Shown in pieces: positions 48,354 through 61,078 of a DNA stretch of 64,000 nucleotides. Within the stretch, counting starts at the first letter, position 1. Each line of letters starts with the position of its first letter. The DNA is taken from the NCBI RefSeq assembly GCF_001553115.1, contig NZ_KQ960171.1, positions 1 through 64,000 on the forward strand. Reading direction: 5' to 3'. The stretch comes from Aedoeadaptatus coxii. Its GTDB lineage: Bacteria > Bacillota > Clostridia > Tissierellales > Peptoniphilaceae. The translations under genes and the position numbers were made by a program. The notes under the pieces are model-generated. The model did no database searches. It was not told where the DNA came from and worked only from the letters and a program-made list of their open reading frames with translations.

Positions 48354-48382
48354 TTGACTGAAATAAAGGGGATTGCTATAAT
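48354..48382 (+). promoter_or_regulatory. Sigma-A type promoter of prdC-prdE
   Basis: TTGACT (48354-48359), 17-base spacer, perfect TATAAT (48377-48382). No -24/-12 (sigma-54) element, which drives prd genes with PrdR elsewhere, is seen. A leader of about 90 bases follows, before AAGGAG and the ATG. The region 48241-48353 holds nothing else I can support. Confidence 0.8.
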
Positions 48383-48478: not shown

Positions 48479-49813
48479 ATGGGAAGACAGTTCAAGTTTT
48501 TTCTAAAGCAAGGTGTCGGCGCACCGCCGGTAACATGTGTTAAAAAAGGTGACAAAGTTAAACGCGGTCAAGTTATTGCCGATTACGAACCTGAAAAATT
48601 GAGTGTGCCCTTGCACACCTCCGTTTCCGGTACTGTAACCGACGTTCAAGAAGATTACATCATCGTCGAAGCGGAAGGCAATCCCAGCGTTAACGACGAT
48701 TACGTAAAACTCGAGCCGGGCAAAGATGATGCTGAAACCGTCCGCAAGGCAGGCATCCTCGGCATGGGCGGCGCAGGCTTCCCCGCTTATGTCAAAATGA
48801 ACACCAAGCTCGAAGGCAATGATGGATATATCCTTTGTAACGCCGCAGAATGCGAGCCCATCCTCGATCACAACATGACCCAAATCATGGAAGAAACCGA
48901 TGCGCTCATTAGCGGTATGCAAATCGCTATGAAATCCACCGGTGCTACCAAAGGTATTATCGGCATTAAGCTTAAACATAAAGACGAAATCAAACACATC
49001 AACGGCATTTTAAAGGAAAAAGGAATCAAAGATATTCGCATCCTTCCCTTGAGAAACATTTATCCCGTTGGTGAAGAACGTGCACTCGTTCGCGACACCG
49101 TCAACAAACTGCTTCCCCCGGGCGCGCTTCCTGCTGAAGCAAACTGTGTCGTATTTAATATCGAAACCCTTTGCTGCATCCACCATGCCGTTAAGGATTT
49201 AAAACCCTGTATCGATAAATACGTTACCGTCGCAGGTAAATTTAAGAAATTCACCGAAAAGGGACAAAAAGAAGTTATTCACATTCCCTACGGCATGATG
49301 ATCGACGACCTTATCGAAGACTTCGGCGGTCTCGACGAACCCGTTGGCGAAATCTTAATCGGCGGACCCTACACCGGTCGCCGCAACAAAGAAGGCAGCT
49401 CGATTTACAAATTATACGGCGGCGTAACCGCTACTGAACCTTTCCAAGCTGCAAAAGGCCCCATGGGCATTATCCAATGTGCTTGCGGTCCGGCTAAGGA
49501 AAGACTTTATGAAATCGCTCAATCCTTAGGTCAAGAACCTATCGATTACCGCGTATGTAAAAATGCCGTCGAACAAAAGAACGGCACTTACAAATGTAAA
49601 GATCCCGGAAACTGCCCCGGCCAAGCTGAACACGTTCTCGCATTCAAAAAACAAGGTTGCGAATCTGTTCTTATCGGCCACTGCACCGACTGCTCCAACA
49701 CTGTCATGGCATCGGCTCCCAAGGCAGGTCTGGAAGTAAACCACGCTACGGATACGGCACTTCGTACCATGGGTATGCCGCTTATCCGTAAATTCGACGA
49801 AAACGCCCTATAA
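48479..49813 (+). CDS. prdC: Proline reductase-associated electron transfer protein PrdC
   Basis: 444 residues, RnfC-like. Order: N-terminal biotinyl/RnfC hybrid domain (FFLKQGVGAPPVTCVKKGDKV near 6-26), SLBB/NADH-binding Complex1_51K-like core (GMGGAGFPAYVKM, NAAECEPILDHN near 120-140), then a C-terminal region with Cys pairs (CACGPAKERL, CPGQAEH, GHCTDCSNTV) instead of classical ferredoxin motifs. PrdC is thought to feed electrons to proline reductase. Some PrdC proteins contain selenocysteine; this one reads straight through with Cys. First gene of a two-gene operon with prdE. Confidence 0.87.
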   Translation: MGRQFKFFLKQGVGAPPVTCVKKGDKVKRGQVIADYEPEKLSVPLHTSVSGTVTDVQEDYIIVEAEGNPSVNDDYVKLEPGKDDAETVRKAGILGMGGAGFPAYVKMNTKLEGNDGYILCNAAECEPILDHNMTQIMEETDALISGMQIAMKSTGATKGIIGIKLKHKDEIKHINGILKEKGIKDIRILPLRNIYPVGEERALVRDTVNKLLPPGALPAEANCVVFNIETLCCIHHAVKDLKPCIDKYVTVAGKFKKFTEKGQKEVIHIPYGMMIDDLIEDFGGLDEPVGEILIGGPYTGRRNKEGSSIYKLYGGVTATEPFQAAKGPMGIIQCACGPAKERLYEIAQSLGQEPIDYRVCKNAVEQKNGTYKCKDPGNCPGQAEHVLAFKKQGCESVLIGHCTDCSNTVMASAPKAGLEVNHATDTALRTMGMPLIRKFDENAL

Positions 49814-49834: not shown

Positions 49835-50308
49835 ATGGGCATCGGTCCATCGACAAAAGAAACCAGCTTACACCATTTCAGAGATCCCATTGTGGAACTC
49901 TTAGGTGAAGACACGGACATCGATTTTCAAGGTGTCGTCCTCGTCGGCACACCCCAAGATAATTCGGACAAATACTTTGTAGGCACCCGCGCCGCATCCT
50001 GGATTGAAGGCATGCGCACCGACGGCGTGATCCTTTCGGCAGACGGCTGGGGCAACTCCCACGTCGACTTTGCCAACACCTGGGAAGAACTCGGCAAACG
50101 TGGCATCCCCACTGTCGGCGTTACGTTCCAAGGAAAACAAGCTTCCTTCGTCGTAAAGAATAAATACATGACAACCCTCGTCGATATTAATAAATCGGAA
50201 CAGGGCATCGAGACGGAAGTCGTCGGTGAAAACAATGTAGACCTTATGGACGCGAGAAAAGCTATTGCCCTTTTGAAACTGAAAGTTCGAAAAGAAGGCA
50301 GAAAATAA
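49835..50308 (+). CDS. prdE: Proline reductase-associated protein PrdE
   Basis: 157 residues, paralogous to the C-terminal part of PrdA (after Cys423): its start GIGPSTKETSLHHFRDPIV matches IGPASKEMSRHYFREPLV of PrdA; further on GVVLVGTPQDNSDKYFV, DGVILSADGWGNSHVDF, RGIPTVGVTFQGKQASFV and NKSEQGIETEV all have counterparts. It lacks the pyruvoyl-forming Cys because the protein starts just after that point. PrdE probably joins PrdD or the reductase complex. It sits 5 kb from prdA, behind prdC. Confidence 0.85.
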   Translation: MGIGPSTKETSLHHFRDPIVELLGEDTDIDFQGVVLVGTPQDNSDKYFVGTRAASWIEGMRTDGVILSADGWGNSHVDFANTWEELGKRGIPTVGVTFQGKQASFVVKNKYMTTLVDINKSEQGIETEVVGENNVDLMDARKAIALLKLKVRKEGRK

Positions 50309-52494: not shown

Positions 52495-53892
52495 TCACCT
52501 CATATAATCGAAGGCATCGACGATGATGTTTGCGTCGCCTTCTTGCAGCGTCCGGGGATCCAAGAGCAAATGATCCTTGGCGATGCGCCCGATAATGGCG
52601 GGTTCGTGCATTCTGAGGGCGTGTTCCAATTGGGAGGCGGAGCAGTTTTTATCCTCCACGCTTACGACGTAAGTATCCAGGGTTTCGCCGGGGCAGGAGC
52701 CGCCGCCGATTTGGCTCTTATCTTCTACGACCTCTGCAGCATAGCCCAATCGAATCAATTCGTATTTCAAAGCCTCCGCTTCTTTTTTAATATCTTCCAG
52801 AGGTTTGGTAATCATGGCGAGGGTGGGAATTTCCTTACGCGCCGCCTTGGGATTGCGATAGGATTCCAAAGTGGCTTCGAGGGCGGCAAAACTCATTTTA
52901 TCCATGCGCACTACCCGCGCCAGAGGATGGCGCTTCATGCGATCGATGTATTCCTTTTTGCCGATGGCGATGCCCGCTTGGGGGCCGCCTAAAAGTTTGT
53001 CGCCGCTAAAGAGGACGAGGTCGGCGCCGGATGCCAAGGCTTCCCGTACGGTAGGTTCGTAGATGCCCACGTCGGAAAGGGAATCCATTAGGCCGCTTCC
53101 CAAATCGTAAACTAAGGGAAGATCGTGTGCGTCGGCGATTTTTTTTAATTCTTCCAGTTCCACCTCTTGAGTGAAGCCCACCACTTTAAAATTGCTGGTG
53201 TGGACTTTTAACAGCACGTCGGCCTCTTCCGATGAAGCTGCCTTTTCGTAATCTCTCGGGTGTACTTTATTGGTGGTGCCGATTTCTTTTAAACGGGCGC
53301 CGGAAAGCTCGATAATTTCGGGGATGCGGAAAGAGCCTCCGATTTCCACAAGTTCTCCGCGGCTCACGACTACGTCGCCACCGTTTGTAAGTGCGCTAAT
53401 GGCGAGGAGCACGGCCGATGCATTGTTGTTCACCACCATGGCGTCTTCCGCACCTGTAATATCGCGGACGAGACCGTTTAAAATATCGTGGCGACTTCCC
53501 CGGCGGCCTTCGTCGATGGCATATTCCAAATTGGCGTAAGAGGGGGTGAGTTTTTCCACGCGCTCTAACGCCTTGCGGCTCAAGAGGGAACGGCCCAAAT
53601 TCGTATGCAAAATGACGCCGGTTGCGTTAATCACCGGGCGCAAATTCGGCGTCATTTGATCGTTTATGTTGCTGTAAATGCGATTTTGAATTTCTTCTAA
53701 AGAAGCGAGGGCTTCTAAAGGCGCCTCATCCTCCGCCGCCAAAATATCGCGGCGCACCGAATCGATGGCGTCGCGCACGGCATCTTTCAGCGCCACGGCG
53801 TCCATATTTTCCGCCTTCAGACTCTCCAGTACGTCGTTAACCTGGGGGAGTCTGCGCAGGTAATGTGATTTTTCCTTCATTGATATAGTCAT
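52495..53892 (-). CDS. selA: L-seryl-tRNA(Sec) selenium transferase SelA
   Basis: 465 residues. PLP enzyme with Lys299 in SGDKLLGGPQAGI (E. coli Lys295), N-terminal tRNA-binding part (RRLPQVNDVLES), INATGVILHTNLGRS near 88-102 and SPSYANLEY-like TPSYANLEY. It turns Ser-tRNA(Sec) into Sec-tRNA(Sec) with selenophosphate. The ATG overlaps the TGA of lysR (ATGA), so lysR-selA-selB are one coupled operon. Confidence 0.95.
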   Translation of the reverse strand: MTISMKEKSHYLRRLPQVNDVLESLKAENMDAVALKDAVRDAIDSVRRDILAAEDEAPLEALASLEEIQNRIYSNINDQMTPNLRPVINATGVILHTNLGRSLLSRKALERVEKLTPSYANLEYAIDEGRRGSRHDILNGLVRDITGAEDAMVVNNNASAVLLAISALTNGGDVVVSRGELVEIGGSFRIPEIIELSGARLKEIGTTNKVHPRDYEKAASSEEADVLLKVHTSNFKVVGFTQEVELEELKKIADAHDLPLVYDLGSGLMDSLSDVGIYEPTVREALASGADLVLFSGDKLLGGPQAGIAIGKKEYIDRMKRHPLARVVRMDKMSFAALEATLESYRNPKAARKEIPTLAMITKPLEDIKKEAEALKYELIRLGYAAEVVEDKSQIGGGSCPGETLDTYVVSVEDKNCSASQLEHALRMHEPAIIGRIAKDHLLLDPRTLQEGDANIIVDAFDYMR

Positions 53893-54800
53893 TTCGATTC
53901 CACCTTGTCGTGAATGTATTTTCTAAAGGCCTGTGCCGGTAAGGACAAGACCGTATTCTTATTCCATACCATATAAAAATCTCGGCTCATATTCAACTCT
54001 TTAATTTTAAAAATTAAATAATTGCGAGCTTCATAATTTTCGTAGGCGGATATTTTTGAAATAACGGAAATGCCCAAGCCGTATTCCACACACTTTTTAA
54101 TGGATTCGATATGGGTTAAAAGGGCGCTCATTCCCCATTGATAACTGGAATAGCCCAGCTTTTCCACTTCTTTTTCAAATTGACGACGGGTGGCGGAACC
54201 TTCTTCCCGCCAAATAAAATTCTCGCCGATAATTTCCTTAATGCTGATCGTTTTATCTTTATGATACATGGCCAGGTATTTTTCATTTTTCGGACAGATT
54301 AAAACCAGGGGATCGGTGAGGACTTTTTCCGACCCCAAAGCGGCGTTGGGTTTCTTTCCTAAAAAGCCGATGTCGCCTTGGCCTGCGAGCAAATTGTTTT
54401 CAACAATATCGCTGTCCGATTGGTCGATAAAAAAGCGGACGAAGGGATTTTCTTCCCGAAACTCCAACAAATGGCTCGGAAGCCAAGATTCTCCGATTAC
54501 GGAAGACACTTGCATGGAAAGCACGCCGGCAATATCTTCCCGCATGTCTTTCTTAACTTCCCGGAGGGCTTCGTCGCGAATATTCATAAGCTCCACGGCA
54601 TAACTGTATAATTTCTTGCCGTCTTCAGTGAGCACAGCCTCGCCACGGTTGCGATTAAGCAAAATCACGCCCAACTCCTTTTCGAGACTGATCACGTGGG
54701 CGGAAATAGTGGGCTGTGTTAAAAAAGCGGCGTCCGCGGCGCGGGAAAAGCTTTTATACTTCACCACATTTACAAAAGCATTGATTTGTTTGAAATCCAT
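53889..54800 (-). CDS. Selenium metabolism-associated LysR-family regulator
   Basis: 303 residues. Winged HTH at 1-60 (FVNVVKYKSFSRAADAAFLTQPTISAHVISLE), followed by a LysR substrate domain (about 92-300). A LysR family linked to sel genes is known in Clostridia. Encoded first in the lysR-selA-selB operon, and divergent from the PrdA-N paralog and prdA. No PrdR is present in this window, so this protein is a candidate controller for the prd genes as well. Its own promoter overlaps one arm of an inverted repeat at 54866. Confidence 0.85.
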   Translation of the reverse strand: MDFKQINAFVNVVKYKSFSRAADAAFLTQPTISAHVISLEKELGVILLNRNRGEAVLTEDGKKLYSYAVELMNIRDEALREVKKDMREDIAGVLSMQVSSVIGESWLPSHLLEFREENPFVRFFIDQSDSDIVENNLLAGQGDIGFLGKKPNAALGSEKVLTDPLVLICPKNEKYLAMYHKDKTISIKEIIGENFIWREEGSATRRQFEKEVEKLGYSSYQWGMSALLTHIESIKKCVEYGLGISVISKISAYENYEARNYLIFKIKELNMSRDFYMVWNKNTVLSLPAQAFRKYIHDKVESK

Positions 54801-54865
54801 AAGTCCTCCTGGTTAGCAATAGCGAAAAAACAATGTGAAAAATCCTGACGTACTATGTAAAGATA

Positions 54866-54917
54866 ATGTATCTATATTTTAACATAGAAAGCTAAGCAAA
54901 TTGACGAATAGATACAT
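54866..54917. promoter_or_regulatory. lysR promoter and candidate LysR operator
   Basis: ATGTATCTAT (54866-54875) and ATAGATACAT (54908-54917) are a perfect 10-base inverted repeat with centres 42 bases apart, i.e. four helical turns. Minus-strand promoter TTGCTT (54894-54899) - 17 - TATAGA (54871-54876) starts lysR, with its -10 box inside the left arm. This suits autoregulation. The rest of 54801-55095 is AT-rich with no gene seen. Confidence 0.6.
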
Positions 54918-55095
54918 AATATAAGAAAAGAAATCATATAGGCGAAATCAATAAGAGCCAATGGACAGAGACCATTATAATGACTAAATACAGACGGCGA
55001 CAAGGGAGAGAATAAAAAAGTGAAAAAATAGGGAGTATAGGGTTTTCGAATACGACTCCTTTACGAATAGAAAATATTTATCCTAAGAAATGGAT

Positions 55096-55124
55096 TTGAC
55101 CAAAAAATTTAAAGTTGATATAAT
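55096..55124 (+). promoter_or_regulatory. Promoter of the PrdA-N paralog
   Basis: TTGACC (55096-55101), 17-base spacer ending GTTGA, TATAAT (55119-55124). The -35 box, spacing, spacer end and -10 box are the same as in the prdA promoter at 55955. Confidence 0.85.
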
Positions 55125-55213
55125 TCTAATGTAAGAATAAATGGCGTTATGGAAACTGCCGCGCCCTTTGTTTCAAATCGAATGAACGATTCCACAATCA
55201 TTAGGAGGTTATT

Positions 55214-55642
55214 ATGTCCATTACAAAAGAAACCGCATTACAACATAAAGACGATCCGGCCGTAACATGCTGTCGTTTTGAAGCCGGCGAACTCGTCGAA
55301 GCTTCCATTTTGGAAGACCCGGCCATTTTCGCTGACTTGGAAGATTCCGGTCTCCTCGAAATCACCGACGACACCTTAACCATCGGCCAAGTACTCGGCG
55401 CAAAACTTAAAGAAACCGTCGACTCCTTAACTCCCTTAACCAAAGATCTTTTGGAAGACATTCCCGAAACACCTCTCGGCGAAGAAGGAGAAGAAGAGGA
55501 AGAAGCAGAGGCAGCTGCAGGCGAAGCCCAATTCGAAACCGTGCCCGTAGCTCAAGGAGCGGCACCTGTGGTAACAGGCTATGCAACCCTTAAAATTGCA
55601 AAAGGCGAAAACATCGAAATCTCTTTCCCGGTTTACGGTTAA
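55214..55642 (+). CDS. Stand-alone PrdA N-terminal domain paralog
   Basis: 142 residues. Residues 1-91 are identical to PrdA 1-91 at 79 positions by my count; an acidic/Ala linker follows (92-120), then GYATLKIAKGENIEISFPV, which matches PrdA up to residue 139, after which the protein stops (YG). DNA differs at many silent sites, so the copy is not recent and is kept under selection. It includes the conserved Cys pair at 19-20 (VTCCRF). AGGAGG precedes the ATG, and it has its own promoter and terminator. Role unknown; it could be an extra subunit or competitor for the reductase core. Confidence 0.82.
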   Translation: MSITKETALQHKDDPAVTCCRFEAGELVEASILEDPAIFADLEDSGLLEITDDTLTIGQVLGAKLKETVDSLTPLTKDLLEDIPETPLGEEGEEEEEAEAAAGEAQFETVPVAQGAAPVVTGYATLKIAKGENIEISFPVYG

Positions 55643-55871
55643 ATCGATTGTGCCCTCGGCGTTTTTTATGAATAGTATTTAATACAATAGATCGATTCGA
55701 AGAGCCTATTTATTTATCTATAGATCATTTTAATAAGATATAGAGAAAAATGCCAGGCTATCGACGTTATCAATATAAAAACTCCTTAGATAGAAAATGC
55801 TTTTTTTGGGAAAAAATATTATCTATCAAACGTTGAGAAACAAACGTTATAAATGGGACAAAAGGAAAACT
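55643..55871. other. Non-coding stretch after the PrdA-N paralog
   Basis: AT-rich with no supported gene; it does not resemble the rest of prdA in any frame I tried. It may be a long 3' UTR, since the only good terminator lies at 55872. Confidence 0.4.
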
Positions 55872-55905
55872 CGGGAAAAGGAAGCGACCTCATTTCCCGT
55901 TTTTT
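55872..55905 (+). terminator. Terminator between PrdA-N paralog and prdA
   Basis: CGGGAAA pairs with TTTCCCG, followed by six T. It separates the paralog from prdA. Confidence 0.7.
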
Positions 55906-55954
55906 CATTTCGAAAAACGAATGCTCCAAAAATTTTTGGGATTAGCGGACAAAT

Positions 55955-55983
55955 TTGACCTCATTTTCATCTGTTGATATAAT
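55955..55983 (+). promoter_or_regulatory. Promoter of the prdA operon
   Basis: TTGACC (55955-55960), 17-base spacer ending GTTGA, TATAAT (55978-55983). A leader of about 115 bases follows, with AAAGGAGG before the ATG. Confidence 0.85.
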
Positions 55984-56105
55984 TATGTCACAACGATGAG
56001 TCAGTCGGCTCCGATCATACTCAGTCGTTAAAAAAGGATGGAAATTGTTCGATCCGATAGAGATATGATGCGTCGTATCTCGATTAGCAAAAAAGGAGGA
56101 AGAAT

Positions 56106-58001
56106 ATGTCTATTACCAAAGAAACGGCAATGCAGCACTTAAATGATCCTGCTGTAACCTGTTGCCGATTCGAAGCCGGTGAACTCGTAGAACCTTCTAT
56201 CTTAGAAGATCCCGCGATTTTCGGCGACCTTCAAGACACAGGTTTGTTGGAAATCACCGACGAAACCCTCACTATCGGCCAAGTTATTGGTGCGAAACTT
56301 AAGGAAACGGTTGATTCTTTAACCCCCTTAACGAAAGATTTAGTAGAAGACCTTCCCGAAGTACCCCTCGGCGAAGAACCCGCAGAAGAAGTAGCTGAAG
56401 CAGCTCCCCAAGCAGCTCCTGCAGTAGCAGAAGCTCCCGCAGCCGTAGCAGCACCTTCCGTAGCAGGCTATGCTAACATAAAAATCGCTAAGGGCGAAAA
56501 CATCGAAATCAGCTTCCCCGTTGTTGGCGGTGCCGGCGTAGGTGCAGGCGCTCAAGCAGCAGCTGTAGCAGCAGGCGCTCAAGCTCCCGCAGCACTTGGA
56601 AAAGATGAATTCGTTGAAGGTGAAACTCACGAAATCCGTCACTTAAGAAAAGACTACTACACCATCGAAAAAGTAGAACGCGGTCCCGAAACCAAAATCG
56701 AAGGCACCACACTCTACATTCGCGAAGGTATCGAACAAGAAGTTATCGATTCTCAAGAACTCGTTAAAGACTTCAAGATCGACATCATCACCCCGGATCG
56801 TTACGATGAATACTCCGAAACCATCATGGACGTTCAACCGATCGCTACCAAAGAAGAAGGCGAATTAGGTTCCGGCGTTACTCGTGTACTCGACGGCGTT
56901 ATTATGATGCTGACCGGTACCGACGAAGGTGGCGTTCAAATCGGTGAATTCGGTTCTTCCGAAGGTGAAATGGATAGAAACATTTTATTCAACCGTCCCG
57001 GTAGCCCGGACATGGGTGAAACCTTCATTAAATGCGAAGTAACCATTCAAGCAAAGACCAACATGGAACGTCGTGGACCCATGTCTGCTCACCACGCTGC
57101 AGACCACTTAAACCAAGAAATCCGCGATGCATTGAAAGAACTCGAAGCAACTCCCGTTCGCTCCGAAGAATTCTCTCACGTTCGCAAAGAAGGCCGTAAA
57201 AAAGTTCTCCTTATTAAGGAAATCATGGGTCAAGGCGCAATGCACGACAACTTATTGCTCCCCGTCGAACCCTGCGGCTGGTTAGGCGGACACCCCAACG
57301 TCGACTTAGGTAACCTTCCGATCATGCTTTCTCCCCTCGAAATTCTCGACGGCGGCGTTCACGCATTGACCTGCATCGGACCGGCATCTAAAGAAATGTC
57401 CAGACACTACTTCAGAGAACCCTTGGTACTCGAAGCATTGGCTGATGACGAAATCGACGTAGTAGGCGTATTGCTCGTTGGTTCTCCCCAAGCAAACACC
57501 GAAAAATTCTATGTATCCAAACGTCTCGGTATGACCGTTGAAGCTATCAACCCCGACGGTGTTATTATCACCACCGAAGGTTTCGGTAACAACCACATCG
57601 ACTTCGGTTCTCACCACGAACAAGTCGGTTTGCGTGGCATCCCCGTTGTCGGCATGAGTTTCTGTGCTGTACAAGGTGCTCTCGTAACCGGTAACGAATA
57701 CATGGTAGCTATGGTCGACAACAACAAGTCCAGACAAGGTATTGAAAACGAAATTCTCGAAAACAACACCCTCTGTCAAGAAGACGCAATCCGCGCTTTG
57801 GCTATGTTGAAGAACCAAATGGCAGGCGAAGAAATCAAAGCTCCGGAACGTAAATGGAACCCGAACGTTAAGCTCAACAACATTGACTTAATCAAGGAAC
57901 AAACCGGTCGCGAATTCGACCTTGTAGAAAACGAAACCAGCTTGAAGATGAGCAAGAAACGTCGCGAAATTTACGAAAAGGACGAAGCAGGAGAAGAATA
58001 A
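56106..58001 (+). CDS. prdA: D-proline reductase proprotein PrdA
   Basis: 631 residues. N-domain (1-91), Ala/Pro/Glu-rich linker (92-135), a second module (about 170-420) and the C-terminal part after Cys423. The sequence GVHALTC-IGPASKEMS has Cys423, equivalent to Cys421 of C. sticklandii PrdA, where self-cleavage yields the pyruvoyl-bearing small subunit. With PrdB it reduces D-proline to 5-aminovalerate, the acceptor half of Stickland fermentation. First gene of a seven-element operon; codons are of the highly expressed type. Confidence 0.96.
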   Translation: MSITKETAMQHLNDPAVTCCRFEAGELVEPSILEDPAIFGDLQDTGLLEITDETLTIGQVIGAKLKETVDSLTPLTKDLVEDLPEVPLGEEPAEEVAEAAPQAAPAVAEAPAAVAAPSVAGYANIKIAKGENIEISFPVVGGAGVGAGAQAAAVAAGAQAPAALGKDEFVEGETHEIRHLRKDYYTIEKVERGPETKIEGTTLYIREGIEQEVIDSQELVKDFKIDIITPDRYDEYSETIMDVQPIATKEEGELGSGVTRVLDGVIMMLTGTDEGGVQIGEFGSSEGEMDRNILFNRPGSPDMGETFIKCEVTIQAKTNMERRGPMSAHHAADHLNQEIRDALKELEATPVRSEEFSHVRKEGRKKVLLIKEIMGQGAMHDNLLLPVEPCGWLGGHPNVDLGNLPIMLSPLEILDGGVHALTCIGPASKEMSRHYFREPLVLEALADDEIDVVGVLLVGSPQANTEKFYVSKRLGMTVEAINPDGVIITTEGFGNNHIDFGSHHEQVGLRGIPVVGMSFCAVQGALVTGNEYMVAMVDNNKSRQGIENEILENNTLCQEDAIRALAMLKNQMAGEEIKAPERKWNPNVKLNNIDLIKEQTGREFDLVENETSLKMSKKRREIYEKDEAGEE

Positions 58002-58004
58002 TTC

Positions 58005-58268
58005 ATGGATAGGCTCAAATATATTTCGACGGAACAATATGTCGAAGGCATTATCGTCAATCTAACCGATGTTTCGGTAACCATCGACTTTAAGGGCAGA
58101 ATGGGACAATTAAAAGTTCCCATGCGCAACATCATTTCCGAATATCCCCTTGAAGAGGGAATGGAAGTTGGTATGTTAATGACTATTCCCGAAGTCATCA
58201 ATGACGAAGTCAATGAGGGGTATAAACGAAATATCGAGCTTAGGCGTGAAAGAGGTCTTCTGGACTGA
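58005..58268 (+). CDS. Small proline-reductase-cluster protein (CBO2463/CBO2479-like)
   Basis: 87 residues, three bases after prdA and 22 before prdB. It looks like a small beta-barrel: GIIVNLTDVSVTIDFKGRMG and LKVPMRNIISEYPLEEGMEV, ending in a charged tail. I believe this is the CBO2463/CBO2479 domain found in clostridial proline reductase clusters, but no function is known to me. An S1/OB-like fold or assembly factor is possible. GGAGAAG precedes the ATG. Confidence 0.65.
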   Translation: MDRLKYISTEQYVEGIIVNLTDVSVTIDFKGRMGQLKVPMRNIISEYPLEEGMEVGMLMTIPEVINDEVNEGYKRNIELRRERGLLD

Positions 58269-58290
58269 GTTTGTTTAAGGAGGAAAAAGA

Positions 58291-59016
58291 ATGAAGCTTA
58301 CAACCGTAAAAGGCTTGCAATCTGAAATCTTCGTTCCCATTACCCCGGATCCTGTATGGACCCCGGTAACCAAGGAATTGAAAGATATGCGAGTCGCTAT
58401 TGCGAGTGCTGCGGGTATTCACTTAGTTAGCCAAGAACGGTTTAACTTAGCAGGTGACACGACTTATCGTGAAATCCCCGGTGACGCACAAGACGAAGAT
58501 TTAATGGTATCCCACGGTGGTTACGATAACTCGGACGTTAACAAAGACATCAACTGCATGTTCCCCATCGACCGTTTGAGAGAACTTGCAGATGAAGGAT
58601 TTATTAAAGAAGTAGCACCTTTCCACTACGGATTCATGGGCGGCGGTGGCGACCAAGACGCCTTTACGCACAAAACCGGTCCGGAAATTGCTCAAAAACT
58701 TAAAGATGAGGATGTAGATGCAGTTATCCTCACCGGTGGCTGAGGTACCTGTCACCGCACCGCGACAATTGTTCAACGTGCGATAGAGGAATCGGGTATT
58801 CCTACCATCTTGATCGCTGCATTACCTCCGGTTGTCCGTCAAAACGGATCTCCGCGTGCCGTTGCTCCTCGTGTACCGATGGGCGCTAACGCAGGTGAAC
58901 CTCACAACGTCGAAATGCAAACAGGCATTTTGAAGGCAACCTTAGAAGAGCTCGTGAAAATTCCAAGCGCAGGCAAAATTGTTCCCCTGCCCTTCGAATA
59001 TATCGCTCACGTATAA
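58291..59016 (+). CDS. prdB: D-proline reductase selenoprotein subunit PrdB
   Basis: 241 residues when the in-frame TGA at 58741-58743 is read as selenocysteine (residue 151). The frame continues directly after it (GTCHRTATIVQRAIEESG) to TAA at 59014-59016, giving the redox motif GGU-GTC, as in PrdB of C. sticklandii and C. difficile (Sec at 151/152). The Sec attacks D-proline together with the PrdA pyruvoyl group. AGGAGG precedes the ATG. The gene is intact; a stop at 58743 would be an annotation artefact. selA, selB, selC and selD are all within 8 kb. Confidence 0.96.
58741..58782 (+). promoter_or_regulatory. Sec UGA codon and candidate SECIS hairpin in prdB
   Basis: UGA at 58741-58743. 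Twelve bases on, CGCAC (58756-58760) pairs with GTGCG (58778-58782) around a 17-base interior with possible inner pairs. Bacterial SECIS elements lie here, but the exact fold needs a model. Confidence 0.5.
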
Positions 59017-59037
59017 AATAACTGTTGGAGGGATAGA

Positions 59038-59781
59038 ATGGAAGACATTCAAAAACGTCGCTTAGTGATCCGCGCTTTCCACGCAGATGAGGTTGAATTC
59101 GGCAATAAACCCGCTATGGTAGACGGCAAACTTACAGTAGTAGACCATGCCGAAAATACTAGCGATCTCGTCGTGAAATCGACAGTCGAAATCTTACAAC
59201 CCCATGAACACGATGTGGAAGTCAACAGCATCATGGACGTTATCCCTATCTCAACCAAGGTACTTGGCAGATTAGGTGAGGGTGTAACACACACCCTTAC
59301 CGGCTGCTATGTTGTACTGACAGGTGTCGATGAAGACGGCCGTCAAATCGGTGAATTCGGTTCATCGGAAGGTAACTTACAGGAACAACTTTATCTCGGT
59401 AGAAGAGGTACCCCGGGGGAAGACGATGTGATCATTCATATCGATGTCCTCGTTAAAGGCGGTCAACCCTTTAGCCGTGAGCTTGCCAATGCGGCATTCC
59501 AAGTTGCCGAAGATTACATTCAACCTATACGTAAGATGATGAAAGAATTAAACGGAGCAAAAGCTACCGAATCTCACGATTATTACGATATCGAGAGAAA
59601 AGGCGGCATGAAGGTCGTGCTGTTGAAACAAATTGCCGGCCAAGGTGCCATGTACGATAATATGATCTTCCCCTCGGAGCCCTCCGGCTTTGATGGACTC
59701 TCCATTATCGACATGTACAATATGCCCGTTTATTTAACACCGAATGAATATCGCGACGGTGCCATTCGCGCACTTGTATAA
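59038..59781 (+). CDS. prdD: Proline reductase-associated protein PrdD
   Basis: 247 residues, paralogous to the middle of PrdA (about 175-420): EHDVEVNSIMDVIPISTKVLG, EGVTHTLTGCYVVLTGVDEDG, GRQIGEFGSSEGNLQ, MKVVLLKQIAGQGAMYDN and the last residues EYRDGAIRALV match ILDGGVHALT of PrdA. It ends exactly where PrdA has its pyruvoyl Cys. PrdD is probably a non-catalytic partner that assembles with PrdE. GGAGGGA precedes the ATG. Confidence 0.88.
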   Translation: MEDIQKRRLVIRAFHADEVEFGNKPAMVDGKLTVVDHAENTSDLVVKSTVEILQPHEHDVEVNSIMDVIPISTKVLGRLGEGVTHTLTGCYVVLTGVDEDGRQIGEFGSSEGNLQEQLYLGRRGTPGEDDVIIHIDVLVKGGQPFSRELANAAFQVAEDYIQPIRKMMKELNGAKATESHDYYDIERKGGMKVVLLKQIAGQGAMYDNMIFPSEPSGFDGLSIIDMYNMPVYLTPNEYRDGAIRALV

Positions 59782-59791
59782 CTAAATAATT

Positions 59792-59878
59792 AATAAGGAT
59801 GCCGAGATCTTCGTCGATTTATTATCAGGATTATGGTATGATACCTATTGAGGGAGACCTCGGTTCTTTATCCTTATT
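59792..59878 (+). repeat. Long inverted repeat between prdD and selC
   Basis: AATAAGGAT (59792-59800) pairs with ATCCTTATT (59870-59878), and inside it CCGAG (59802-59806) pairs with CTCGG (59859-59863). Within the loop is an extended -10 (TGGTATGAT, 59834-59842). It could be a processing hairpin, a partial terminator or a regulated promoter for tRNA-Sec and prdF. Confidence 0.5.
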
Positions 59879-59899
59879 TATATTTCTTTTCATATTCCT

Positions 59900-59997
59900 G
59901 GGAGCAGATAGGTGTCTGGTGTGCCTCGCGGTCTTCAAAACCGTCGTGAGGAGTTCGAAGCTTCTTGGGTGGGTTCGATTCCCACATGTTCCCGCCA
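59900..59997 (+). tRNA. selC: tRNA-Sec (anticodon TCA)
   Basis: 98 nt with encoded CCA. Anticodon loop CTTCAAA gives TCA (UGA), the long variable arm is typical, and the T arm GTGGG-TTCGATT-CCCAC follows. The long acceptor arm (GGGAGCA/TGTTCCC) fits selC. It lies between prdD and prdF in the prd operon orientation. Confidence 0.93.
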
Positions 59998-60070
59998 TTT
60001 ATACATAAATGGTCGACGGGTTTATGTTCTGAAATGGGAAAATGTTTTTATAGTATTAAGGAGGATCACA

Positions 60071-61078
60071 ATGAAATTTTCTAGAAGCATCCACGCCGTT
60101 GACTCTCATACCGCCGGCGAAGCTACACGTGTCGTTATTGGCGGCATCCCTAACATTCCGGGAAAAAGTATGCCCGAAAAGAAACAATACCTCGAAGATA
60201 ATCTAGACTACTTGCGTACCGCCATTATGTTAGAACCCCGCGGACACAATGACATGTTCGGATCTATCCTTACCCAACCGACAAATGATGAAGCTGACTA
60301 CGGTATCATCTTCATGGATGGTGGCGGATACCTTAACATGTGCGGTCACGGTACCATCGGTGCAATGTCTGTTGCTGTTGAAACCGGCATCATTCCCTGC
60401 GAAGAACCCGTTACCAAAGTTGTTCAAGAAGCTCCTGCAGGCATTATCCGCGGCGAAGTAGAAGTTGAAGACGGTCACGCTAAAAAAGTTACCTTCACCA
60501 ACGTTCCCGCATTCCTTTACAAAGAAGACCAAGAAGTTGAACTTCCCGGCTACGGCAAGATCAAATTCGACATCTCCTTCGGCGGCAGCTTCTTCGCTAT
60601 CGTAAAAGTTGACCAAATCGGCGTTACCATCGAACCGGAAAACGCACAAGTTCTTAACAAACTTGGTATGCAACTTCGCGATATCATCAATAAAGAAATC
60701 AAAGTTCAACACCCCGAACTTCCCCATATTCACACCGTCGACCTTATCGAATGGTGGTCCGAAACCGATACACCGGGCGCAACCCTTAGAAACTGCGTCG
60801 TATTCGGTCAAGGCCAAGTGGACAGATCGCCCTGTGGAACCGGTACCAGTGCTAAAATGGCTACCCTTTACAAAAAAGGCGAACTTAAAGTTGGCGAAGA
60901 ATTCGTTTACGAATCCATCCTCGGAACTTTATTCTACGGCAAGATCCTTGAAGAAGCTAAAGTCGGCGATTTAGATGCCGTCATTCCTCAAATTTCAGGT
61001 TCCGCTTGGATCACAGGTTTCAACCACTTTGTAATCGACGAAACAGACCCTGTAAAACACGGTTTCATTCTCGGATAA
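60071..61078 (+). CDS. prdF: Proline racemase PrdF
   Basis: 335 residues, normal for proline racemase. The two catalytic Cys are Cys91 in MCGHGTIGA and Cys255 in PCGTGTSAKM, which act as paired acid and base; the start FSRSIHAVDSHTAGEATRVV is typical. It turns L-proline into the D-proline used by PrdA/PrdB. The ATG at 60071 follows AAGGAGG; longer in-frame starts would lie inside tRNA-Sec. Twenty-three bases ahead of the TSUP permease gene. Confidence 0.95.
   Translation: MKFSRSIHAVDSHTAGEATRVVIGGIPNIPGKSMPEKKQYLEDNLDYLRTAIMLEPRGHNDMFGSILTQPTNDEADYGIIFMDGGGYLNMCGHGTIGAMSVAVETGIIPCEEPVTKVVQEAPAGIIRGEVEVEDGHAKKVTFTNVPAFLYKEDQEVELPGYGKIKFDISFGGSFFAIVKVDQIGVTIEPENAQVLNKLGMQLRDIINKEIKVQHPELPHIHTVDLIEWWSETDTPGATLRNCVVFGQGQVDRSPCGTGTSAKMATLYKKGELKVGEEFVYESILGTLFYGKILEEAKVGDLDAVIPQISGSAWITGFNHFVIDETDPVKHGFILG

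Follow-up and report, generated by a model that had tools for sequence, protein, structure and literature searches.

PrdA is the D-proline reductase proprotein, and its pyruvoyl cysteine is known from PMC9908766. According to section 8 of PMC3091704, PrdD is a copy of the middle part of PrdA, and PrdE of its C-terminal part. That section also proposes that the C-terminal CxxU/CxxC of PrdC reduces the selenide-sulphide of PrdB directly, and describes a thioredoxin/GrdA relay for glycine reductase. What is new here is a stand-alone N-terminal module, probably an additional subunit of an enzyme whose middle and C-terminal modules have already been described in free-standing form. In a non-exhaustive search of the open-access PMC literature, no stand-alone PrdA N-terminal module, no assignment of that module to the SAF fold, and no link between such modules and the type of PrdC were found described.

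The module is the 142-residue product of nucleotides 55214–55642 of the window, the 64,000-nucleotide stretch of Aedoeadaptatus coxii DNA analyzed here. For convenience, we name it PrdN. The N-terminal region of PrdA (TIGR04480) has the same SAF-like domain, Cys-Cys pair, linker, and hairpin, but PrdN is a separate polypeptide without the pyruvoyl-forming core. Like PrdD and PrdE, PrdN is a single PrdA module that stands alone, the third and N-terminal one. Unlike them, it is distributed patchily and, outside the window's genus, often adjoins prdC or a gene that resembles prdR by eye. SAF-domain proteins (type III antifreeze protein, FlgA, and sialic-acid-synthase-like proteins) share the predicted beta-clip fold with PrdN, which differs from them in its vicinal cysteines, acidic linker, hairpin tail, and prd gene context. 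Lipoyl domains are swinging carrier domains. By analogy, PrdN may be compared with them and with the thioredoxin/GrdA relay, as a small, flexibly tethered domain with redox capability that is sometimes present in several copies, but it has no lipoylation or Sec, its fold is different, and its redox role is a candidate one.

The prdN gene and its neighborhood

The prdN gene (55214–55642, + strand) starts with ATG, preceded by an AGGAGG ribosome-binding site (55203–55208, +), and is identified by its open reading frame, a partial TIGR04480 match, and orthologues in three congeners. The next gene is prdA (56106–58001, +; 631 residues; TIGR04480, 920.8 bits). In its product, residues 1–138 make up the N-terminal module, the core begins at about residue 170, and the pyruvoyl-precursor Cys423 is encoded at 57372–57374. 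The order of genes in the window begins with prdC (48479–49813, +; TIGR04481), which encodes an electron-transfer protein, and a PrdE-like gene (49835–50308, +; TIGR04480 profile positions 415–564), which encodes a stand-alone PrdA C-terminal (alpha) module. These are followed on the minus strand by selB, selA, and the gene of a selenium-metabolism-associated LysR regulator (53889–54800, −; NF040786, 351 bits), which is divergent from prdN. After prdN come prdA, a CBO2463-type gene, prdB, prdD, tRNA-Sec, prdF, and a TSUP-like gene, and the order ends with a YedF-like gene and selD, both on the minus strand. The gene that we take to be prdB from gene order and sequence (58291–59016, +) carries an in-frame TGA (Sec) at 58741–58743, and prdD (59038–59781, +; TIGR04482, 337.3 bits) encodes a stand-alone PrdA middle (beta) module. 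SelA, SelB, PrdF, TSUP, YedF, and SelD are likewise presumed names, given from sequence. Rfam at gathering thresholds gives tRNA-Sec as the sole match over 54000–61000.

The small CBO2463-type gene at 58005–58268 is also found between prdA and prdB in all mapped main clusters that extend that far. Three congeners, G002 (L057), G004 (L058), and G007 (L060), have a second prd-like operon between the PrdE-like gene and selB. It encodes a PrdA2 of about 590 residues, proteins resembling CBO2463 and PrdB (the latter 241 residues long in G002 and G004 and uninterrupted by a stop codon where Sec would be), and a fused PrdE-PrdD protein of some 414–425 residues. Neither G006 nor the window's genome has the operon at that site.

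The promoters of prdN (55096–55124, +) and prdA (55955–55983, +) both have the pattern TTGACC-N17-TATAAT, and TTGACC-N16/17-TATAAT is present upstream of all 4 PrdN genes and all 5 main PrdA genes examined in the genus. The sequence-only reading had described a common spacer end, GTTGA, for this pair; the promoters stand, but the GTTGA end is not kept among the promoters of the PrdN and PrdA genes of the genus. Exact copies of TTGACC-N17-TATAAT in the 1.84-Mb genome number 2, the prdN and prdA ones only. We do not regard this rarity as significant, because the reversed control pattern gives 2 as well. A promoter of similar shape, TTGACT-N17-TATAAT, lies upstream of prdC (48354–48382). The terminator proposed earlier between prdN and prdA corresponds to a terminator-like hairpin with a T-run (55872–55905, +), which is seen by folding and is absent from the consensus scan list. 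The segment 55860–55915 folds with −16.1 kcal/mol (z −1.8; 10 of 200 shuffles are equally good), and similar inverted repeats are visible by eye in the prdN–prdA interval of relatives. A hairpin at 55650–55662, an entry of the consensus scan, folds no better than shuffles. Inverted repeats are also visible by eye in the prdA leader (55990–56090), with similar ones in P. nemausensis, and they are possibly an mRNA-stability or regulatory element.

PrdN is identical to the neighboring PrdA at 79 of its first 91 residues and shares the GENIEISFPV block with it, as first read from the sequence. Of these 79 residues, 38 are encoded by a different codon. The NG86 estimates are dN 0.099 and dS 1.90, the LWL85 estimates are 0.091 and 1.66, and the maximum-likelihood dS is 24. 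The claim of diverged synonymous sites in a kept protein is thus borne out, but dS is saturated, and the paralogue dN/dS alone is therefore weak. The claim that PrdN ends where the second module of PrdA begins turns out to be wrong. PrdN stops just past the GENIEISFPV hairpin motif, and the PrdA core begins about 30 residues beyond that point, after a second disordered stretch. TIGR04480 matches PrdN with 134.6 bits over profile positions 1–132 of 587, below its curated equivalog cut-off of 700 bits, so PrdN is a PrdA module and not a PrdA. It has no Gly_reductase match, and it stops before the core with the pyruvoyl-forming Thr-Cys site. In NCBIfam at E ≤ 0.1, the partial TIGR04480 match is the only one to PrdN, with none to PrdD (TIGR04482) or the C-terminal part of PrdA.

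Orthologous PrdN proteins within the genus have dN/dS of 0.02–0.10 over 84 codons, far from the neutral value of about 1 (window/nemausensis, dN 0.021 and dS 0.581; pacaensis/urinae, dN 0.010 and dS 0.456). The values in other families are mostly below 0.08, several of them with saturated dS, and constraint is weaker in genus g24 (0.15–0.20). prdN is a real gene under purifying selection. The earlier proposal of a domain-level duplication retained under selection is supported by these values, together with the presence of PrdN in 4 of the 5 domain-positive members of the genus.

Predicted fold and the Cys-Cys pair

PrdN can be divided into three parts. Residues 1–85 (55214–55468, +) are predicted to form a SAF-like domain of the beta-clip, or type III antifreeze-like, kind, as suggested by AlphaFold2, by Foldseek and VIA, and by Pfam SAF matches in relatives. 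They are followed by an acidic linker rich in Ala, Pro, and Val (55469–55570, +) that is predicted to be disordered (block pLDDT 44–54 over residues 91–120), and by a conserved C-terminal beta-hairpin motif (KIAKGENIEISFPV; 55571–55639, +), with predicted strands at 120–128 and 134–141 and block pLDDT of 67–79. In the AlphaFold2 model of PrdN, made with 75 sequences, pLDDT is about 95 over residues 11–80. The top Foldseek and VIA-align matches to residues 13–85 of the model are type III antifreeze proteins and FlgA. The scores are middling, with Z up to 7.2, TM normalized by target up to 0.75, and a Foldseek E of 0.05 at best, none being under 0.04. Pfam SAF (PF08666) matches 41 of the 75 aligned members at E ≤ 1, the best at 2e-5; it does not match the window PrdN itself at E ≤ 1, and it matches a relative in genome G636 with 32.3 bits (cut-off 21). 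Sequence and predicted fold thus agree, at middling scores, on a SAF-like module with a beta-clip fold. A PDB sequence search with PrdA, PrdN, or the 75-row alignment returned nothing relevant. In the model of full-length PrdA, the N-terminal domain is set apart from the core by stretches with pLDDT below 50 (90–121 and 138–169), and the hairpin between these disordered stretches is also below 50.

The module carries a vicinal cysteine pair, Cys19-Cys20, encoded at 55268–55273 (+). Across 36 full-length PrdA proteins, no cysteines are invariant except C19, C20, and C423, the pyruvoyl precursor. The pair is present in all 124 PrdA first-domain rows, a few of which are one gene in two stretches, and in 26 of the 29 stand-alone copies. 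In the other three, all from genus g24, ALR replaces CCR. Two-domain proteins that differ in their first domain number 37, among them those of G636 and G673; the pair is in the first domain in 37 of 37 cases and in the second domain in 0 of 37.

The ALR copies of g24 and the second tandem domains without the pair indicate that extra copies are not always dithiols and that part of the module's job is non-redox. This makes an assembly or docking role the main rival to a redox role. On this view, PrdN, as a free SAF-like module, would act in structure or assembly by occupying docking sites, determining the oligomeric state, or aiding PrdA maturation, and the Cys-Cys pair would serve a structural or regulatory purpose. 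A protein-stabilizing role is suggested in section 8 of PMC3091704 for PrdD and PrdE, the free-standing forms of the two remaining PrdA modules. Some assembly chaperones contain SAF domains; one of them, FlgA, is a fold match here, and Pfam ChapFlgA matches the G636 protein, below its cut-off. We consider this role unlikely but worth keeping in view, as it accounts for the extra copies without the pair but leaves the invariant pair of PrdA unexplained.

Distribution and repeated origin or conversion

Searches with the N-domain profile find the domain in 5 of the 8 genomes searched in the genus and PrdN in 4 (G000, G002, G004, and G006). The last three, congeners of the window's genome, are Peptoniphilus nemausensis, A. 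pacaensis, and A. urinae, respectively, and their PrdN sits between lysR and prdA. In G007, prdA directly follows lysR, without PrdN. In the window's family, with 130 genomes searched, stand-alone PrdN is present in 7 of the 13 that have the domain; the figures are 8/47 in family f75 (71 searched), 6/31 in f58 (sample of 146), and 8/9 in f20 (sample of 148), or 29 of 100 in the four families together. The domain is present in 51 of 249 genomes of the order, with the same seven PrdN genomes and a two-domain form in G636. Across the phylum, an even sample of 398 genomes contains 17 with the domain, of which only the window's own has PrdN. The searches of f58, f20, the class, and the phylum are samples, and the stand-alone count leaves out G673, for its broken prdA frame, and G781 and G808 of f58, for contig ends. 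In G673 (L160), prdA is seemingly frame-broken into three pieces, by assembly error or real decay. Occurring in three congeners and three other families, PrdN is not specific to the strain.

Of the 29 PrdN genomes, 26 have prdN in linkage with prdA, prdC, or both. In two of the exceptions, G890 (L183) and G898 (L186), prdN lies away from the prd genes and adjoins genes of the 2-hydroxyglutaryl-CoA dehydratase D-component family; in the third, G929, it is on a different contig from the two PrdA genes. Such positions would fit a free PrdN that serves a second PrdC-like or an unrelated reductase, the prdA neighborhood being historical. With the linkage in the other 26 genomes, and with one PrdC and one RnfC-like protein in the window's genome, we regard this as quite improbable.

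Stand-alone copies mostly match their own PrdA at 59–78 of 80 residues (43 in G890 and 36–39 in g24), and they end at the hairpin motif or within about a dozen residues past it. A single ancient origin of all stand-alone copies is rejected: the one-clade tree is 449 lnL units lower (AU p 3.5e-69) in a test of 99 rows, 26 of them stand-alone, that excludes the three g24 copies and long-branch paralogues. One clade of PrdN within the genus is not rejected (p 0.705), and the four copies may form one. The genus-constrained tree is 16 lnL units above the free tree, indicating that the quick search is imperfect. In the quick tree, the window and nemausensis PrdN each stand beside their own PrdA (SH-aLRT 89). 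As the copies are near their own PrdA and do not form one clade, the module appears to have split off, or been converted, several times. PrdN is thus recurrent, as judged from trees of about 88 columns in which repeated duplication and gene conversion are indistinguishable.

A tandem 5′ duplication of prdA is plausible as the source, and PrdN is patchy in Clostridioides (3 of 8 genomes), as might be expected of a decaying, functionless fragment of such a duplication. The orthologue dN/dS, the conserved promoter, and several separate origins or conversions with like end points make this extremely improbable; a remnant or strain-specific fragment is ruled out by the orthologue dN/dS and the recurrence.

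Relation to PrdC and proposed role

The redox center of the window PrdC is CTDC (codons 49682–49693), without selenocysteine, as expected if extra modules go with Cys-type PrdC. We tabulate 143 distinct main PrdA loci with PrdC in the stretch, of which 59 have an extra N-terminal module (28 PrdN and 31 tandem only). PrdC has Cys instead of selenocysteine in 58 of these 59 loci, versus 16 of the 84 single-module loci, where the other 68 have Sec. The 16 include Clostridioides genomes and the congener G007, and the sole extra-module locus with Sec-PrdC is that of G558, which has PrdN. Four PrdA without PrdC in the stretch (L043, L047, L147, and L210) are left out of the table, L047 being from the PrdN genome G532 and L147 being the main PrdA of G636. 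Also left out are the PrdA2-type paralogues (core less than 57% identical to that of the window), which are a different system; all 13 rows have a single domain and Cys-PrdC. Of the 143 rows, 20 are contig loci, for which the search for PrdN under that record covers the locus and not the whole genome.

A Pagel-type test of dependent versus independent evolution gives a likelihood ratio of 53.7 (p 6e-11) for extra module and Cys-PrdC, and 21.4 (p 2.7e-4) for PrdN alone, with extra-module gains fitted only in the Cys state; the test is purpose-written, and single events can inflate such likelihood tests. Among 10 independent pairs, 4.8 are concordant, 0 are opposite, and 5.2 show no difference (sign test p ~0.06); for PrdN alone, 2.5 are concordant (p 0.25). 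With cores collapsed at 85% identity, p is 4.6e-6, and at 80% it is 0.074. At 75%, 3 clusters are left and the association is gone. The association rests on few independent events.

The gene arrangement also ties the module to PrdC. In 13 of the 29 genomes with PrdN, prdC is the gene immediately before prdN (six of f58, three of g24, three of f20, and G558). Of these, 11 are read from gene maps, in which prdF and prdR are named by eye, and the other two, G686 and G461, from coordinates. The order prdC, prdN, prdA, all on one strand, is seen in f58, g24, and part of f20. G264 and G761 have the operon prdC, prdN (with the Cys-Cys pair), prdA (whose only N-terminal domain lacks the pair), CBO2463, prdB, and prdD. 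The sole Cys-Cys domain of the main cluster is thus a separate gene between prdC and prdA, and each genome has a PrdA2 paralogue elsewhere with its own Cys-Cys domain.

These arrangements bear on another reading, in which PrdN, responding to redox state or proline, would be a regulator or decoy and throttle the enzyme by competing with the PrdA module for PrdC. This we consider improbable: although its own promoter and the terminator-like hairpin allow independent expression in the window, where prdN is divergent from the lysR gene, PrdN is no mere competitor in G264 and G761, and in f58, g24, and part of f20 its gene stands in line with prdC and prdA, flanked by them on the same strand.

In G636 (L159 and L247; 97% complete, two contigs), the single PrdC gene lies 19 bp upstream of a gene for a 216-residue protein that consists of a domain with the Cys-Cys pair, a domain without it, and the hairpin. 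The two lie some 1.6 Mb, measured along the contig (or 0.7 Mb should the contig be circular), from the prdA–prdB cluster, which has genes resembling prdR and prdF and no prdC. Other PrdC-like matches in this genome are weaker and partial, one with E 4e-34 over residues 9–302, which is probably RnfC, and one with E 1e-6. A structural or assembly role leaves this pairing with PrdC only, as well as the link to Cys-type PrdC, unexplained.

Our best explanation, to which we assign a probability of roughly one half, is that PrdN is an extra trans-acting partner subunit of PrdC that would relay electrons into D-proline reductase. PrdN would be an additional copy, working in trans, of a mobile PrdA N-terminal module, in which a SAF-fold domain with the Cys-Cys pair is joined by a flexible linker to a short docking-like hairpin. 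The CxxC or CxxU center of PrdC, the NADH-linked donor, would reduce Cys19-Cys20, and the reduced module would hand electrons on to the PrdA/PrdB catalytic core. Extra copies, free or in tandem in PrdA, would be gained where PrdC has Cys and not selenocysteine, and may offset the slower donor chemistry of Cys-PrdC, Cys being less reactive. We infer the redox chemistry at the Cys-Cys pair, the contact with PrdC, the docking of the hairpin, and the compensation. The published model of direct electron transfer from PrdC to PrdB counts against an added relay step via the module.

The sequence-only reading had offered three roles for PrdN. An extra subunit is the best supported because of the fission of the Cys-Cys domain in two genomes, the coupling to prdC, and the link to Cys-PrdC. 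An assembly chaperone is a live rival, and nothing specific speaks for a decoy. The recurrence of the module, its SAF-like fold, and the Cys-Cys pair were no part of that reading. More tentatively, the SAF-like Cys-Cys module could be the missing relay from PrdC to the core, of which bacteria with Cys-PrdC would repeatedly add copies, the donor arm being separable and tuned by copy number.

An invariant dithiol module that can separate from PrdA, accompany PrdC, and multiply where PrdC lacks selenium is a candidate for the step by which electrons from NADH reach the selenocysteine of D-proline reductase. It is relevant to the Stickland metabolism of anaerobes in the gut and urogenital tract, and it illustrates one way in which a pathway may adjust to the loss of selenocysteine.
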